Assembly: GCF_013128195.2 (NCBI RefSeq)
Contig: NZ_CP053452.2
Span: forward strand, 9,734,001 to 9,798,000
Direction of reading: 5' to 3'
DNA: 64,000 nt
Source of the DNA: Frigoriglobus tundricola
GTDB lineage: Bacteria; Planctomycetota; Planctomycetia; Gemmatales; Gemmataceae
The notes below the pieces were generated by a model, which saw nothing but the letters and a program-made list of their open reading frames with translations, made no database searches and was not told the DNA's origin. Made by a program: the position numbers and the translations under genes. Shown here piece after piece: positions 15,546-23,178 of the stretch (position 1 is the first letter of the stretch; each line of letters begins with the position of its first letter).

Positions 15546-15781
15546 CGCTTCGGGTGGGGACGCGAGGCCGTCGAGACCGGGCTGAACGAACGCCGCACCG
15601 CATCCGCTTCGTCGAGAACGTCCCGGCCAAGGGCCGCGTCCCGGTCGAGCGTACCGATCCATGACTGGCGGCCGACGTCCGCGACCGGGTCGAGTCCCGC
15701 ACCCGTGCCGACCCGGATTTGAAGCCCACCCACCGGTACACGGAACTGGCCGCCCGAGCTACGCCGAGGGCACTCATCAAG
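15546..15781 (+). pseudogene. ISAzo13-type transposase remnant
   Basis: Translating across two frames and one stop gives RFGWGREAVETGLNERRT, then VENVPAKGRVPVERTDP, a stop, LAADVRDRVESRTRADPDLK and THRYTELAARATPRALIK. This order matches the N-terminal to middle part of ISAzo13-family transposases (GWGR...GL.ERRTG; DIR..V....QTDP..KTT..YTRLTA). The DDE catalytic core is missing and no terminal inverted repeats are seen. The rest of 15314-15918 shows nothing else. This is recognition by eye of family-typical words, so moderate confidence. Confidence 0.6.
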
Positions 15782-15918: not shown

Positions 15919-17646
15919 ATGCCGACCGATGCGGAACTTCTTCTCGCATACCTCACGGGAGATCAGGGGGCCTTTGGCGACCTCGTATACCGCCACGAGG
16001 CGATGGTGTTCGGCGTCTGCACGCGCGTGCTCCGCTCCCGCCACGATGCCGAGGACGCGTTCCAGGCCACCTTCTTCGTGCTCGCACGGCGTGCCGCCGA
16101 CGTGCGGCCGCCCGAGCACATCGCCCGCTGGCTTTACGGGGTCGCCCGCCGGACCGCACTGAAAGCGAGGAGCCGCCGGGCGCGCCGGCGACAGGTCGAG
16201 GCCCTGGCCGGCATGATCCCGCACCCGACCGAGGCCGAGGTCCGGGTTCCCGAGTCCCTGTGGAAGATTCTGGACGAGGAGGTGGCCCGCCTGCCCGGTC
16301 GCCTGTTGTCACCATTCGTCCTGTGCGACCTTGAGGGGATGACGTATCGGGACGCGGCCCGACAACTCGGGTTGCCCGAGGGCACGTTATCCAATCGACT
16401 CGCGGCCGCCCGCCAGCACCTGGCGGTCTGGCTCGCCCGGCGCGGCGTCGTACTTCCCGCCGCCGGGCTAACGGCCGTGCTGTCACCGTCCACGGTCATG
16501 GCCGTCCCGCCGGCACTCGCCGCTTCCACGGTGGACGTGGTCAGTGCCGGTGGCCCCCTGTCCCCCCTTGCTGAAGGAGTGGTACGAAACATGGCGATCA
16601 CTAAAACCCTGAAGGCCCTCGCCGCACTCGTCGCGGTGATCGGGTCGGCACTTGTCGGCTGGTCCGCCCTCGCCGCCCGCGAAGGGGGCAAGGAACTGAA
16701 GAAGCTCGAGGGCGAGTGGACGGTTGTCCGCGCCGAGCAGAGCGGAAAGCAAGCACCAGACGACGACCTCAAGAAGATGAAGGTCACCTTCACGGGCGGG
16801 AACATGACCATCGACACGGGCGCCCGTCAGGAGGTGTGCGCGGTGGCCGTCGATGCAACTACGAAGCCCAAGGGCATCGACTTCCGCCCTCTCAAACTCA
16901 ACAACGGGCAGGTGGACCGGGGGATCTACGAACTCAAGGGCGACGAGTTGACACTCTGCTGGGGCGGAGAAAAGACGCCCGGCGGTCGCACCGAAGAGTT
17001 CAAGACCACGAAAGATGGCGGCCAGCGGTTACTCGTCCTCAAACGAACGAGAGCGAAGGACCCCAAGGATCCCCAAAGCCCCAAGGTTGATACGAGCGGC
17101 TCAGACCCAAAGAAGCAGTTGAAAACCGCACCGCCTCAGGAAGTGAGCAAAGATGCGGAAAAGCTGTTGGTGTGGGCGGTTCAGCAAGCCAAGGCGAACA
17201 ACAAGCGCGTCATGCTTGTTGTCGGGACGAAGGCATGCATTCCGTGTCGACAACTCAATGGGCTCTTCGACGACCTCGAGCCGATTCTCGACAGGCACTT
17301 GATACTCGTCAAACTCGATTTGGATATCGAGAAGGCCAACGTAGTGCATGAGCGCCTCCGCAAAACGGACCTTGATGGAGGAGGGAACGCATTCCTGCCC
17401 TGGATGATCATCCTGAACGACGCGGGTGAGCCGCTCGCCAAATCGGGAAAACAAGTAATCGGCAATAAAGATGCCGTGACCGGCCTGCCACATGGCAAGG
17501 ATGAGGACCGACGTTACTTTGTCAAAATGCTGCGCACATCTTGCCCCGACATGACCGACGACGAATTGTCACGCGTCTATGATGCGGCCACGGCGCTCCA
17601 TAGACGGATCTGGGGCGACAAAGGTTCTTACTCAAGTGGCAAATAA
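15919..17646 (+). CDS. ECF sigma factor fused to membrane anchor, TIGR03067 and thioredoxin-like domains
   Basis: 575 residues from ATG 15919, chosen because region 2 begins directly after it (MPTDAELLLAYLTGDQGAFG). Domains in order: sigma region 2 (about 8-85, including RHDAEDAFQATFFVLARRAA), region 4 (about 118-175, LPEGTLSNRLAAARQHL), one membrane segment (229-252), a TIGR03067 domain (about 258-378, LKKLEGEWTVVRAEQSGK ... LLVLKRT), and a thioredoxin-fold domain (about 410-560). The last contains the active-site pair C440-I-P-C443 after KRVMLVVGTKA, and a cis-Pro-like FLPWMIIL. Predicted topology: sigma domain cytoplasmic, TIGR03067 and thioredoxin parts outside. A redox-sensing sigma factor would fit, but that is inference. 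Confidence 0.88.
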   Translation: MPTDAELLLAYLTGDQGAFGDLVYRHEAMVFGVCTRVLRSRHDAEDAFQATFFVLARRAADVRPPEHIARWLYGVARRTALKARSRRARRRQVEALAGMIPHPTEAEVRVPESLWKILDEEVARLPGRLLSPFVLCDLEGMTYRDAARQLGLPEGTLSNRLAAARQHLAVWLARRGVVLPAAGLTAVLSPSTVMAVPPALAASTVDVVSAGGPLSPLAEGVVRNMAITKTLKALAALVAVIGSALVGWSALAAREGGKELKKLEGEWTVVRAEQSGKQAPDDDLKKMKVTFTGGNMTIDTGARQEVCAVAVDATTKPKGIDFRPLKLNNGQVDRGIYELKGDELTLCWGGEKTPGGRTEEFKTTKDGGQRLLVLKRTRAKDPKDPQSPKVDTSGSDPKKQLKTAPPQEVSKDAEKLLVWAVQQAKANNKRVMLVVGTKACIPCRQLNGLFDDLEPILDRHLILVKLDLDIEKANVVHERLRKTDLDGGGNAFLPWMIILNDAGEPLAKSGKQVIGNKDAVTGLPHGKDEDRRYFVKMLRTSCPDMTDDELSRVYDAATALHRRIWGDKGSYSSGK

Positions 17647-17686: not shown

Positions 17687-17771
17687 CTTTTCCGCCGCCG
17701 GGTTAGCGACCGTGGTGCCACCGTCCACGGTCATTTCCGACTCGCCGGACCGCGCTGCTTCCACGGTGGAC
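17687..17771 (+). repeat. Duplicated scrap of the ECF sigma gene linker
   Basis: This segment closely matches 16453-16540 inside the preceding gene: both contain CCGTCCACGGTCAT and GCTTCCACGGTGGAC at the same spacing, preceded by CCGCCGCCGGGTTAGCG here and CGCCGCCGGGCTAACG there. It therefore derives from the linker between sigma region 4 and the membrane segment of this gene or of a lost paralogue. No flanking domain survives. Confidence 0.75.
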
Positions 17772-17835
17772 AACGATGCGTGATCCGCGAATCGTGGACC
17801 AGCATGTCCGACGGGCGTTGATCGGTGAATGTTTA

Positions 17836-18039
17836 CCCGACGTTCACGTCTCGGATGGGTTGGTTCCGCGCACGGTTTAACAGCCAGCGATCCGGGAGCC
17901 ACTCCAACAACGGCTCGGTCGTCTTCTCGCCCAACGCGAACCAACCCGGCAGCGCGTCCCGCAGGTACGCGAACGGGTCGATCCCCAAATGCTTGCAGGT
18001 CCCGACCACCGAGTACAGTACCGCCGCCGTCTGACCGCC
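17836..18039 (-). pseudogene. IS66-family transposase C-terminal remnant
   Basis: On the minus strand this reads GGQTAAVLYSVVGTCKHLGI, DPFAYLRDALPGWFALGE, and LLEWLPDRWLLNRARNQP. These are the typical last ~65 residues of IS66 transposases, the conserved C-terminal 'GIDPFAYL' segment. The catalytic domain, the small IS66 ORFs and the terminal repeats are all gone. Together with the transposase scrap at 15.5 kb it brackets the thioredoxin-fused sigma gene. The rest of 17647-18358 shows nothing I can name. Confidence 0.8.
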
Positions 18040-18358
18040 CACCTCACACCGTGGAGCGCGGTGCCGGCCGTGGCGACGACTCCGAGTGCCGATCACGCCC
18101 CGCTGCGACGAACGAGAGCCGACCGCACCGCCCCGGCTGAAGGAGACGTTCCGTCGGGTGAATCACTGACAGCGGATTACACTTTCTCCTGATGCGCCGC
18201 CGCCACCTACCCAATAAGTTCAATGCTGACGTAGCGACGTACCGATTTGCCCAACTGCCTTCGGAGGCCGATCGCAACGAACGGTTCACTCCGCATCATT
18301 CCGTGAGCGCACTGCGACCCGGCGGTGACCGATTCTCGCGGTCCGAAGGACGGGTCGG

Positions 18359-21300
18359 ATGACATGTAGAACCTTGCTGAGTTGGCTGACGGGCGAGCGT
18401 CAGTTCCAACGAGGAGGCCCGCAGCGGGTCCTCACCGGCTCACGTCCCCGCCCGTTGCGCCTGGAGGAGATGGAACCGCGCGTGGTGCCGGCGTCGATTC
18501 TGTCCGTCGGAAACGCCACGTTCAGTCTGGCCGCCGGGGCCGCCGGCTTCCAAGTCACCCGCACCGGCGACCTGACACCGGCCGTCGGTATCGGCTATTC
18601 CGTCACGGACGGCACGGCGACCAGCGGCACGAACTACACTTCTTCTGCCCCGACTGGGGTTCTGGATTTCGCATCCGGCCAGACCACGGCCACAATTCCG
18701 CTCTCAATTCTCACGACTAATTTTAGCGGAGCCAGCCGGGGGTTCACGGTCGACTTGACCGGGGTCGTTGCCACCTTCGGCCCGCCCGCCGCCTTCGCCG
18801 CACAACGCACCTTCACGGTGGGCGTCCACCCCTTTTCAGTCGTGGAAGCCGACCTGAACGGCGACGGGCGCCCCGACCTCGTTGTCGCTAACTTCGGGTC
18901 CAACACGGTTTCGGTGCTGCTGAACACCACGGCGCCGGGCGCCGCCATCGCCAGCTTCGCCGCCCAGCAGACCTTCGCCACGGGCAACGGACCTTTTACC
19001 GTGACGGTCGCGAACGTGAACGGCGACGGCCGGCCCGACTTCGTCGTTGCCAACTCGGGTTCGAGTACCGTGTCGGTGCTACTGAACACCACGGCAGCCG
19101 GCGCCACTACCGCCAGCTTCGCCGCCCAGCAGACCTTCGCCACCGGCGCCGGACCCGTTTCCGTGACGGCAGCGGACGTGAACGGCGACGGCCGGCCCGA
19201 CCTCATTGTCGCCGACGAAGGGGCCAACGAGGTGTCGGTGCTGATGAACACGACGGCCCCGGGCGCCGCCACTGCCACTTTCGCCGCCCAGCAGACCTTC
19301 GCCACCGGCGGCGCGCCCCGCGCGGTGACCGCTGCGGACGTAAACGGCGATGGCCGGCCCGATCTGATCGTCGCCGACTACGGGTCCGCGGCGGTGTCGG
19401 TGCTGCTGAACACGACGGCCCCGGGCGCCGCGACCGCCAGTTACGCCGCCGGTGCCTCGTTTGCCACCGGCACGAGTCCCTCTTCCGTGGCCGTGGCGGA
19501 CCTGAACGGGGACGGCCGAGCGGACATCGTCGTCGCCAACTACGGCTCCGCCTCCGTATCGGTGCTGCTGAACACGACGGCCCCGGGCGCCGCCGCACCC
19601 AGCTTCGCCGCCCAACAAACGCTCGCCACCGGCAACGGGCCCCGGTTTGTGGCAGCGGCGGACGTGAACGGCGACGGCCGGCCCGACCTCGTCGTCGCCA
19701 ACTATAACTCGTTCAATCTGTCGGTTCTGCTGAACACGACGCCCCCGGGCGCCGCGACCCTGAGTTTCGCCGCGCAGCAGACGTTCCTCACCGGCAACGG
19801 GCCGTTTTCGATCGCGCTGGGGGATCTGAACGGCGACGGCCGGCCCGACATCGCCGTCGCGAATTACACCTCCGGCAACGTGGGCGTGCTGCTCAACACC
19901 ACGTCCCACACCGAATCGACAACGGCCGGCGTGCCTTCGCCCACGTTCACCGCGGCCGCCACACCGGCCACTGACATGGCGCCCTCTTCGGTGGCGGTTG
20001 CGGACTTGAACGGCGACGGTCTCCCCGACCTCATCGTCGCCAACTTCACCTCCGGCACGGTGTCGGTGTTCGTGAACACGACCGCGCCGGGTTTCGACAC
20101 GTCGACGTTCGCTGCCGAGCAGACCTTCGCCGTTGCCAGCTCGCCCTCTTCGGTGGCGGTTGCGGATGTGAACGGCGACGGCCGGCCCGACCTCGTCGTG
20201 ACGCACGAAGGCAACTCCACCGTGTCGGTGCTGCTGGGCACGACGGCCCCGGGCTCCGGCACGATCAGTTTCGCCGCTCCGCAGACCTTCGCAACGGGCG
20301 GCGCTCCCGATTCCGTGGCGGTGGCGGACGTGAACGGTGATGGCAAGCCCGACCTCATCGTCGCCAACCTCGGTTCCAACACGGTATCGGTGCTGCTCAA
20401 CACGACAGCGGCGGGTTCTCTCACCGCCGGTTTCGCCGCGCAGCAGACCTTCGCCACCGGGCGCCGGCCGTATTCGGTCGAGTTCGCGGACCTCAACGGC
20501 GACGGCAAGCCCGACCTCGTCGTGGTCAACGAAGGATCGGCCACGGTGTCGGTCCTGCTGAACACGACGGCCCCGGGTGCCACCACCTCCGCTTTCGCCG
20601 CCCAGCAGACCTTTGCCGTCGGCGCCGATTCGCGCACGATGACGATCGCAGACCTGAACGGCGACGGCCGGCCCGACCTCATCGCCGTCAGCTACGCCTC
20701 CGAAGCCGTGTCGGTTCTCGTGAACACGACGGCGGCGGGTGCGACGACGGCCACCTTCGCCGCCCAACAGACCTTCGCCACCGGCACCGGCCCCCGTGCG
20801 GTAGCGGCCGCGGACGTGAACGGTGACGGCAAGATCGACCTCGTCGTCGCCAACCTCGGCTCCGGCACGGCGTCGGTGCTGCTGAACACCACGACGCCGG
20901 GGGCCGCCACCGCCACCTTCGCCGCCCAACAGACCTTCGCCACGGGTAACATCCCCTATGCGGTGGTAACCGCGGACGTCAACGGGGACGGGCGGCCCGA
21001 CATCATCGTCGCCAACCAGTACGCCAACACGCTGTCGGTGCTGATGAGCGTGGAAGCGGTCGTCGGCACCAGTCCCGCCACCGGCACGATCGCGAGCGCC
21101 CCGATCGTCCAATCGATCGTCCTGACGGACCCCAACCCCAGCACCGCGGCGACGGTGGACTTCACGGTCACGTTCAGCCACGCGGTTAGTGGGGTCGTGG
21201 CCGGCAACTTCGTCCTCAGCGGCACCGCCACGGTCGGCGCCGGCATCGGGACGCCCGCGACCACCGACGGTGGCACCACCTGGACCGTGCCCGTGACCAC

Positions 21301-23178
21301 CGCCGGCACCGGCACCCTCGGCCTCACGCTCGGCACCCGGACGGGAATCGACGATAGCAGCGGCAATCAACTGTACAACACCACGAGCGACGACGGTTCG
21401 ACCTTCACCGCCGTCGTCGGCCCGCAATACACCATTGAGGCCGGTACGGCGACCGCCGTCGGCTCGTCGGTCGATCCGTCGACCTACGGCCAATCGGTCA
21501 CCTTCACGGCGACCGTCAGCGACACCAGTGCCGGTGGGGTCCCGACCGGCAGCGTGGACTTCTATAACGGTACGAGCTTGCTCGGGGCCGGAACCGCCCC
21601 CAGCGGCACGGGGAACGCCGCGACCTCGACGTTCACGATCGCCACGTTGCCGGCCGGAAGTTATGCGATCACCGCCGTCTTCACCGCGACCGGAGCATTT
21701 GTCGGCAGCGCATCGCCCGACGTGACCCAGACCGTCAACCCGGCGCCACTGACGATCACGGCCGACGACCAGACCAAGGTGTACGGCGCGGCGGTGCCGC
21801 CGCTGACGGCCAGTTACACGGGCTTCGTCAACGGGGACACCGCGGCGAATCTGACCACGACGGCCGTACTGACGACGACGGCCACCGCCGGCAGTACGGT
21901 CGCGGGCAACCCGTACGCCATCACTGCCAGCGGTGCCGTGGACGGGAATTACACGATCTCGTACGTGCCCGGCGCCCTCAGCGTCACCGCCGCGCCGCTG
22001 ACGATCACGGCCGACAACCAGACCAAGGTGTACGGCGCGGCGGTGCCGCCGCTGACGGCCAGCTACACGGGCTTCGTCAACGGCGACACCGCGGCCAGCC
22101 TGACCACGCCGCCTGCACTGGCAACGACGGCCACCTCCAGTAGCCCCGGCGGCTCGTACGTCATTACCGTCAGCGGGGCGGCAGATTCCAATTACGCCTT
22201 CGCGTACGCCGCCGGCACCCTCACCGTCGCGGGGCCGCCCCTGAGCCCGCCTCCGGCGCCCGTGCGCCCGTTGATCGTGGTGGGCGCGGGCGCGGGTGGG
22301 CTCCCCGAGGTCAAGGTCTATGACGCGGCCACCGGCGCTCTCGAGTTCGATTTCCTCGCCTTCGACGCCGGTTTCCGGGGCGGGGTGACGGTGGCGAGCG
22401 GCGACGTCAATGGTGACGGCGTGGCCGACATTATCGTGGGGGCCGGGCCGGGGGCCGGCCCGGCCGTCGCGGTGTTCAGCGGCGTGACGGGTGCGCTGTT
22501 GTCCGAGTTCTACGCGTTCGACGCGGGTTTCCGGGGCGGGGTGACGGTGGCCGCCGGGGACGTGTACGGCACCGGGGCGGCGGAGATCGTCGTGGGGGCC
22601 GGGCCGGGCGCCGGCCCGGCCGTCGCGGTGTTCAGCGGCGTGACGGGTGCGCTGTTGTCCGAGTTCTACGCGTTCGACGCGGGTTTCCGGGGCGGGGTGA
22701 CGGTGGCCGCCGGGGACGTGTACGGCACCGCGGCGGCGGAGGTCGTCGTGGGGGCCGGGCCGCGCCGCGCCGGCCCGGCCGTCGCGGTGTTCAGCGGCGT
22801 GACGGTGCGCTGTTGTCCGAGTTCTACGCGTTCGACGCGGGTTTCCGGGGCGGGGTGACGGTGGCCGCCGGGGACGTGTACGGCACCGCGGCGGCGGAGA
22901 TCGTCGTGGGGGCCGGGCCGGGGGCCGGACCGGCCGTCGCGGTGTACAGCGGCGCCGGCACGCTACTGAACGCGTTCTTCGCGTTCGATCCGCTGTTCAC
23001 CGGTGGGGTGACGGTGGCCGCCGGGGACGTCACCGGTGACGGCCGGGCCGACCTCGTCGTGGGGGCCGGGCCGGGCGCCGGACCGGCCGTCGCGGAATAC
23101 AGCGGAACCGACCTAACGCTCCTGGACGCGTTCTTCGCCTACGACCCGCGGTTCACCGGCGGCGTCTGCGTGGGTTGA
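18359..23178 (+). CDS. Giant FG-GAP/VCBS-repeat surface protein with MBG repeats (one frameshift)
   Basis: About 1,600 residues when reconstructed. The N terminus carries RPLRLEEMEPRVVPA, the short L-E-x-R-x-x-P motif seen at the front of many large planctomycete exported proteins. A Calx-beta-like domain follows (about 50-140). Next come 14 repeats of about 60 residues, each with a calcium-loop-like DxNGDGxPDL and a strand such as FAAQQTFATG. They are followed by an Ig-like domain, two near-identical MBG-type repeats (PLTITADDQTKVYGAAVPPL), then a second set of VCBS units (GGVTVAAGDVYGT ... IVVGAGPGAGPAVAVFSG). The frame is lost just after 22803 (GACGGTGCG where sister repeats have GACGGGTGCG). 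The true end is 23178. Role: cell-surface or extracellular adhesion or structural protein, inferred from family. Confidence 0.85.
22361..22950 (+). repeat. Near-identical 156-bp tandem repeats within the FG-GAP gene
   Basis: Units beginning TTCGACGC(C/G)GGTTTCCGG start at 22361, 22517, 22673 and 22831. The first two spacings are exactly 156 bp (52 codons). The third is 158 bp, because the 22673 unit has three extra bases near 22760 (GPRRAGP instead of GPGAGP) and one missing G at about 22804. The high DNA identity points to recent slippage or conversion. Confidence 0.9.

Follow-up and report, generated by a model that had tools for sequence, protein, structure and literature searches.

The gene listed first in Table 1 encodes a single polypeptide in which sigma-70 regions 2 and 4, a hydrophobic span, a TIGR03067 domain and a thioredoxin fold that retains a complete C-I-P-C motif follow one another in that order. 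The protein is real and well delimited, and its domain content, domain order, span and recurrent architecture are carried by sequence comparison and structural models. We read it as an ECF-type sigma factor that is tethered to the membrane, has an envelope sensor built into the same chain and is probably activated by proteolytic release, and we give this reading about an even chance. An earlier note on the same DNA had placed these four parts in one chain and proposed a one-protein path from envelope to transcription; the order is confirmed by Pfam, NCBIfam, the Kyte-Doolittle profile, relatives and the model, and the single-chain layout is supported. When the domain search suggested in that note was run over the whole protein, the sigma regions and TIGR03067 passed their cut-offs and Thioredoxin_7 fell just under.

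The window, meaning the entire 64,000-nucleotide stretch of Frigoriglobus tundricola DNA analysed here, holds the gene as 575 codons without a stop (Table 1). The same frame is open further upstream, to an ATG at 15661, but the listed start is the likelier one because matches to paralogues begin at residues 2-4 and a GGAG-like stretch, recognized by eye, lies ahead of it.

Table 1. Features of the tethered sigma gene and its immediate surroundings (window coordinates)
Feature	Position	Strand	Details and evidence
Whole gene	15919..17646	+	575 aa, uninterrupted translation; Pfam and NCBIfam
Sigma-70 region 2	15982..16188	+	aa 22-90; Pfam Sigma70_r2, E 3.8e-9; paralogue columns
Sigma-70 region 4	16267..16422	+	aa 117-168; Pfam Sigma70_r4_2, E 5.6e-11
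Leu130	16306..16308	+	Arg in the other 77 own-genome and 4 foreign aligned proteins
Weak hydrophobic, proline-containing segment past region 4	16447..16503	+	aa 177-195; Kyte-Doolittle 1.62
Predicted membrane span	16615..16671	+	aa 233-251; Kyte-Doolittle 2.09
TIGR03067 domain	16690..16989	+	aa 258-357; 79.2 bits; lipocalin-like barrel in model
Thioredoxin-fold domain	17107..17622	+	aa 397-568; relatives, alignment, model
C-I-P-C active-site motif	17236..17247	+	aa 440-443; both Cys in invariant columns of alignment A1
Cis-proline position of the thioredoxin fold (Pro494)	17398..17400	+	Invariant column of A1
Tandem upstream paralogue, sigma-span-TIGR03067	13958..15313	+	451 aa from GTG start
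Copy of the gene's own linker (16454-16536), past the stop	17689..17771	+	83% identical

By domain content, the N-terminal part is classed as an ECF-type sigma-70 factor: Sigma70_r2 and Sigma70_r4_2 both exceed their Pfam cut-offs, no region 3 model matched, and the sigma70-ECF superfamily model TIGR02937 scores 61.1 bits against an NCBIfam cut-off of 42.9. Judged by paralogue columns, region 2 retains D46, A47, Q49, A50 and F52. Conserved columns, defined as those at least 85% identical among 82 aligned sigma proteins, number 35, and 33 are retained here; the two departures (Leu for Arg130 and Phe for Leu53) equal the median of 2 among the 82. Leu130 is nonetheless unique in that set, all 81 other proteins having arginine, as does SigE of the solved structure 9m9d at the aligned position. 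In E. coli sigma-E, this region-4 arginine presumably sits close to where the -35 DNA is contacted; because it has been replaced by leucine, promoter binding may be altered or weak. Against other genomes of the family, the sigma part finds its best matches at 46-53% identity.

A whole-protein search of the organism's own genome (9,857,393 bases) reported 151 matches. Stretches retrieved around the better ones contained 95 open frames with a sigma part, 91 of them from the own genome; frames with under 260 residues counted from the start of the sigma part were left out of the alignment (some of them, such as the sigma gene at 8845839 in L068, were clipped where a stretch ended), as was the tandem upstream paralogue. 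The aligned set comprises 78 own-genome proteins, this one included, and four foreign ones. A hydrophobic span of at least 1.6 falls within residues 206-280 from the sigma start in 74 of the 78, and the spans of the aligned family are alanine-rich. Beyond the span, the tails vary: among the 77 scanned (75 retrieved and two in the window), WD40 (PF00400) occurs in 20 and PD40 in 21. The view of the earlier note that TIGR03067-sigma fusions are a recurring theme is upheld in this genome, where TIGR03067 matches nine of the 77 tails at E up to 0.001; L068 and L133 lie below the curated cut-off and the other seven exceed it. ResA-like domains were found in three tails, two of them arranged as sigma-span-TIGR03067-Redoxin (L077 and L136) and the third (L110) as sigma-CarboxypepD_reg repeats-Redoxin. 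The order of sigma part, span, TIGR03067 and thioredoxin fold therefore appears three times among the examined own-genome proteins, with two different thioredoxin subfamilies. The tandem upstream paralogue has both sigma regions over cut-off and a TIGR03067 domain at 48.2 bits, and no thioredoxin model matched it. By these comparisons, the protein is one of dozens of predicted tethered sigma switches in the genome, with varied tails, and not a one-off.

Such a family bears on how these proteins might act. It is conceivable, although we consider it distinctly less probable than release, that the sigma factor works uncut at the membrane, where it would recruit core polymerase from its tether while the outer domains alter its conformation or oligomeric state. 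The existence of dozens of proteins with the same layout and very different outer domains argues for a generic intramolecular mechanism of this kind; likewise, the available text of a study on Tuwongella immobilis reports five ECF sigma factors only in detergent-soluble fractions, three of them from a single experiment (PMC8567305). Against it, IutY, the sole experimentally worked-out release case named in the accessible portion of a review for a sigma factor with a fused regulatory part, works by proteolysis (PMC8999054; PMC5411451). Proteolytic release is in our judgement the likeliest mode of action; action at the membrane without cleavage and a split made by signal peptidase are its rivals.

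The earlier note had counted one membrane span; the strong Kyte-Doolittle peak agrees with it, and a second, weak hydrophobic segment that the note had left unmentioned lies between region 4 and that peak. Net charge by hand count is +2 in the 15 residues ahead of the strong span and +1 in the 15 behind it, and across the family the 15 residues before the span are more positive than the 15 after it in 60 of 74 proteins and less positive in 4. A single span with the C-terminus outside, as the earlier note had it, is favoured because of this charge bias, the signal-peptide-like starts on homologues of the outer modules and the fusion of the thioredoxin module to M56 peptidases; in BlaR1, the sensor domain stands outside the membrane. 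The weak segment could instead pair with the strong span as an inserted hairpin, so that TIGR03067 and the thioredoxin fold would be cytoplasmic and would form an inhibitory C-terminal extension like that described for ECF41 in the available part of PMC8999054. We consider this highly improbable: the segment does exceed 1.6 here and in all reaches that value in 23 of the 78 own-genome proteins, but it stays below in the other 55, the loop between the two segments would put positive charges outside, both outer modules have homologues with signal-peptide-like starts, and eight proteins carry the thioredoxin module behind M56 spans.

Even with the C-terminus outside, signal peptidase might recognize the span as an internal signal sequence and cut there, yielding a secreted TIGR03067-thioredoxin protein and a separate sigma factor, membrane-bound or free; the fusion would then only couple expression or signal export status. 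The same outer modules do occur without a sigma part behind signal-peptide-like starts, the sequence S-A-L-A-A-R straddles the end of the span in this protein, and an A-x-A motif lies near the outer span end in 43 of the 78 span-bearing aligned proteins (74 own, 4 foreign), a count made without a composition control. The motif is lacking in 35 of the 78, however, and is made frequent by composition alone because the spans are alanine-rich; splitting on export is on balance unlikely.

The first of the two putative outer domains scores about twice its curated NCBIfam cut-off of 40.15 bits, and both the sigma and the TIGR03067 scores lie far beyond chance. Its AlphaFold model has a mean pLDDT of 92.7. 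Foldseek returned no match with E < 0.001 for this model. In VIA, the domain matched a lipocalin-like protein with Z up to 10.1 (rmsd 2.7, 91 aligned), where the tool deems a best Z of 7-8 typical without a clear match, and lipocalin-like, fatty-acid-binding and related barrels make up most of the best 50 rows; we read the domain as a probable lipocalin-like barrel. A weak Foldseek resemblance to the anti-sigma factor RsfG (7qh3) was dropped, its TM score being at most 0.41 and its rmsd about 11. In alignment A4, a cysteine in one strand is kept in several TIGR03067 copies, within LTLCWG in this protein. Our literature search found no paper that names TIGR03067, and the lipocalin-like model offers a working hypothesis for this unexplained planctomycete domain, namely that it may bind small or hydrophobic ligands.

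The second outer domain matches Thioredoxin_7 (PF13899) with E 4.1e-5 and 24.1 bits, and reaches 25.3 bits when the outer part is scanned alone, in both cases short of the gathering score of 27. Its relatives L059, L062, L139 and L182 pass that cut-off, and the assignment is made because of such relatives and the model, rather than from the Pfam score alone. Independent support comes from a single-sequence search of 59 genomes, in which the thioredoxin part matched 12 further sequences, 27-33% identical to it, with a best E of 1.6e-10; the profile from alignment A1 was built on this domain and 11 of those 12 (L019 was omitted), and its scores for them are partly so by construction. Within the 12 sequences of A1, the C-I-P-C cysteines and the proline of L-P-W (residue 494) occupy invariant columns, bearing out the earlier claim of an intact active site; the cis role of this conserved proline is established for the thioredoxin fold. 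The motif reads CIPC here versus CGPC or CGWC in most relatives. In the AlphaFold model (pLDDT 84.4), the CxxC (C45 and C48 of the domain) sits at the start of helix 46-57, after strand 35-41, and comparison with solved thioredoxin-fold proteins gave a best Z of 11.0, with the exported disulphide isomerase 3fk8 among the best matches (Z 10.5, rmsd 3.1, 116 aligned). The two outer domains were modelled separately, from alignments A1 and A4; a joint alignment (A3) was dropped, its thioredoxin rows having fallen under TIGR03067. A tree of 80 thioredoxin domains gives this one a long branch, at a distance of 2.9 from its nearest neighbour and with supports of 0.879 and 0.438, and we therefore propose no origin for it. 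The domain may sense redox state, reduce an envelope target, or only bind.

Relatives in other genomes show with what else such a domain is combined. When 397 genomes of the class were searched with the thioredoxin-subfamily profile (12 rows, this protein included), 79 of them gave a total of 97 matches at E up to 1e-25. Eighty of these proteins were examined by frame, a few of them clipped at stretch or contig ends; the remaining 17 are frames of 157-388 aa, too short to hold sigma part, span and domain. Five of the 80 have a sigma part in the same frame, namely this protein, L059 (G002), L062 (G057), L139 (G063) and L182 (G153), and the latter four carry CarboxypepD_reg between span and thioredoxin fold and no TIGR03067. 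The architecture for which the earlier note had proposed a survey recurs within the own genome. In L165 (G203), not counted among the five, a sigma part and CarboxypepD-thioredoxin parts share a frame with a TGA between them. Eight multi-span relatives, all of those scanned, are M56/BlaR1 peptidases fused to the same thioredoxin subfamily (L161, L168, L171, L175, L180, L195, L198 and L199), seven of the eight with CarboxypepD_reg matches. Upstream of one such M56-thioredoxin gene, the frame at L199:2-1438 matched the sigma profile and was not counted as a fusion because it is a separate frame; by eye, it begins like a sigma factor and ends like a kinase, and is perhaps a sigma-kinase fusion. 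In three genomes of one genus (L065, L066 and L206), a sigma gene lies beside a double-thioredoxin gene on the opposite strand. Signal-peptide-like starts were seen by eye in the stand-alone own-genome relative L063 and in L017-L019, and many other long members of the subfamily have a hydrophobic stretch near the N-terminus.

The redoxin-bearing paralogues have relatives of their own. Sigma-fused relatives of the L136 kind occur in G013, G112 and G077 (cut by the contig start in G077), all with CxxC and 53-65% identical to it across the outer part, and a form without the sigma part is found in L146, L210, L212, L213, L214 and L217 (G000 and others), with signal-peptide-like starts where these are readable. 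In 94 other genomes of the family, a search at E up to 1e-25 found no relatives for the outer part of L077. The redoxin domains fused to sigma parts in L215 and L216 have lost CxxC, which means that fusions of this type can do without redox chemistry. The suggestion of the earlier note that the added redox domain points to a defined signal is weakened by these two proteins and strengthened by recurrence, with three such proteins in the genome drawing on two thioredoxin subfamilies.

No close orthologue of this protein was found in the 94 other family genomes searched, and a scan of genome contigs gave no relatives of the whole outer part. Third-position GC content (GC3) is 0.66 in the thioredoxin part and 0.83 in the sigma part; among 143 paralogue tail blocks of 170 codons (mean 0.824, s.d. 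0.065), three are as low as 0.66 or lower. Given its distant thioredoxin relatives, the want of outer-part relatives in the contig scan and the low GC3, the fusion may be a recent one on which selection has had little time to act. Just past the stop lies the linker copy of Table 1, which we take for what is left of a recombination event or of a tandem copy since decayed. It is followed by a decayed stretch (17808-18050) that matched at least 37 places elsewhere in the genome, 40 out of 123 candidates having been scored. One of those places falls in a 518-aa transposase-like frame, which we take to be an IS66-like transposase, and the remnant in the window resembles its C-terminal part. Together, linker copy, transposase remnant and low GC3 suggest that sigma tails may have been shuffled. 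A large repetitive frame, FG-GAP-like by eye, lies further downstream (18359-22858, + strand).

With these marks at hand, the protein might be a functionless chimera, decaying or newly shuffled, that arose by recombination of sigma tails near mobile-element debris. The linker duplicate followed by a decayed transposase end, the unique loss of Arg130, the want of an orthologue in the genomes searched and the low GC3 of the thioredoxin part would all fit such an origin. The frame nonetheless runs for its full length without a stop, both cysteines, the cis-proline and nearly all of the conserved sigma columns are retained, L077 and L136 share the domain order, and the sigma-fused relatives of L136 are 53-65% identical to it in the outer part; we hold a functionless protein to be quite unlikely.

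A tethered sigma factor activated by release, the reading preferred here, would work as follows. The sigma part would be cytoplasmic and the strong span would cross the membrane, placing the lipocalin-like TIGR03067 barrel and the thioredoxin-fold domain, with its intact CIPC, outside. There, the outer part would sense a ligand, a misfolded envelope protein or the thiol-disulphide state, while the tether would keep the sigma part from most promoters. Upon a change outside, the sigma part would be set free by site-1 and site-2 (M50) proteases cleaving the chain, much as happens in IutY. Envelope thiols would have access to the thioredoxin domain, which might also be linked to a reductant relay of the DsbD type. 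Redox gating and release are the least certain of these steps. The own genome does have M50 matches (eight matched stretches in five frames) and one DsbD_TM match, but as all 14 control genomes also gave M50 matches and 10 of the 14 gave DsbD_TM, their presence is weak support. More tentatively still, and at low confidence, it may be proposed that planctomycetes plug exported sensor cassettes (lipocalin-like TIGR03067, CarboxypepD_reg repeats, and thioredoxin or redoxin folds) onto tethered sigma factors or BlaR1-type M56 peptidases, and that in this protein the disulphide state of the outside CIPC would set sigma release with no anti-sigma factor between.

If the preferred reading is true, a single polypeptide does the work usually divided among a sensor, an anti-sigma factor and a sigma factor, and what a planctomycete monitors in its envelope could be read from the exchangeable outer domains of dozens of paralogues. 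Among these, the forms with a thioredoxin fold provide a directly testable entry, since two cysteines can be mutated. Among the literature matches listed (titles and abstract openings), none described a sigma-thioredoxin fusion, and we do not claim its absence from print.

Several known systems resemble parts of this protein. In IutY of Pseudomonas putida (ECF243), a sigma/anti-sigma pair in one chain, the outer part is an anti-sigma domain serving an outer-membrane receptor, whereas here it is a putative TIGR03067 barrel and a thioredoxin fold, and release is only proposed. That anti-sigma domain is presumably FecR-type; no anti-sigma domain was found in the outer part here, Pfam at E up to 1 having given only sigma, helix-turn-helix and thioredoxin-like models. 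What the two have in common, going by the available portions of the sources, is an N-terminal ECF sigma factor and a predicted periplasmic C-terminal domain in one membrane polypeptide, and the sigma part of IutY is released by Prc and RseP (PMC5411451; PMC8999054). Likewise, the ECF48, ECF52 and ECF53 groups of Actinobacteria (e.g., SCO4117) have a C-terminally fused transmembrane part for which proteolytic release is predicted, but according to the same partial text they bear a zinc-finger anti-sigma-like part (PMC8999054), and no such model matched here in Pfam at E up to 1. Closer to the host, the accessible text of PMC8567305 records ECF sigma factors with WD40 repeats from planctomycetes and several ECF factors in detergent fractions of Tuwongella (Gemmataceae); for the abundance of young ECF paralogues in this family it cites Jogler 2012 and Wiegand 2020. 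The Gemmataceae ECF-WD40 proteins also join a sigma factor to a C-terminal extension, and beta-propellers are the commonest tails in the present genome too; their tail is a propeller, while the tail here is TIGR03067 and a thioredoxin fold. The BlaR1/M56 sensor peptidases share the thioredoxin subfamily through the eight fusions described above, yet their output is a protease and the output here would be a sigma factor. Finally, the exported Thioredoxin_7 or DsbD C-terminal-like and ResA/TlpA oxidoreductases have the fold, the CxxC and the cis-proline in common with this domain, and its stand-alone relatives appear to be exported as well; most relatives have CGPC or CGWC, whereas the present protein has CIPC and is joined to a sigma factor.
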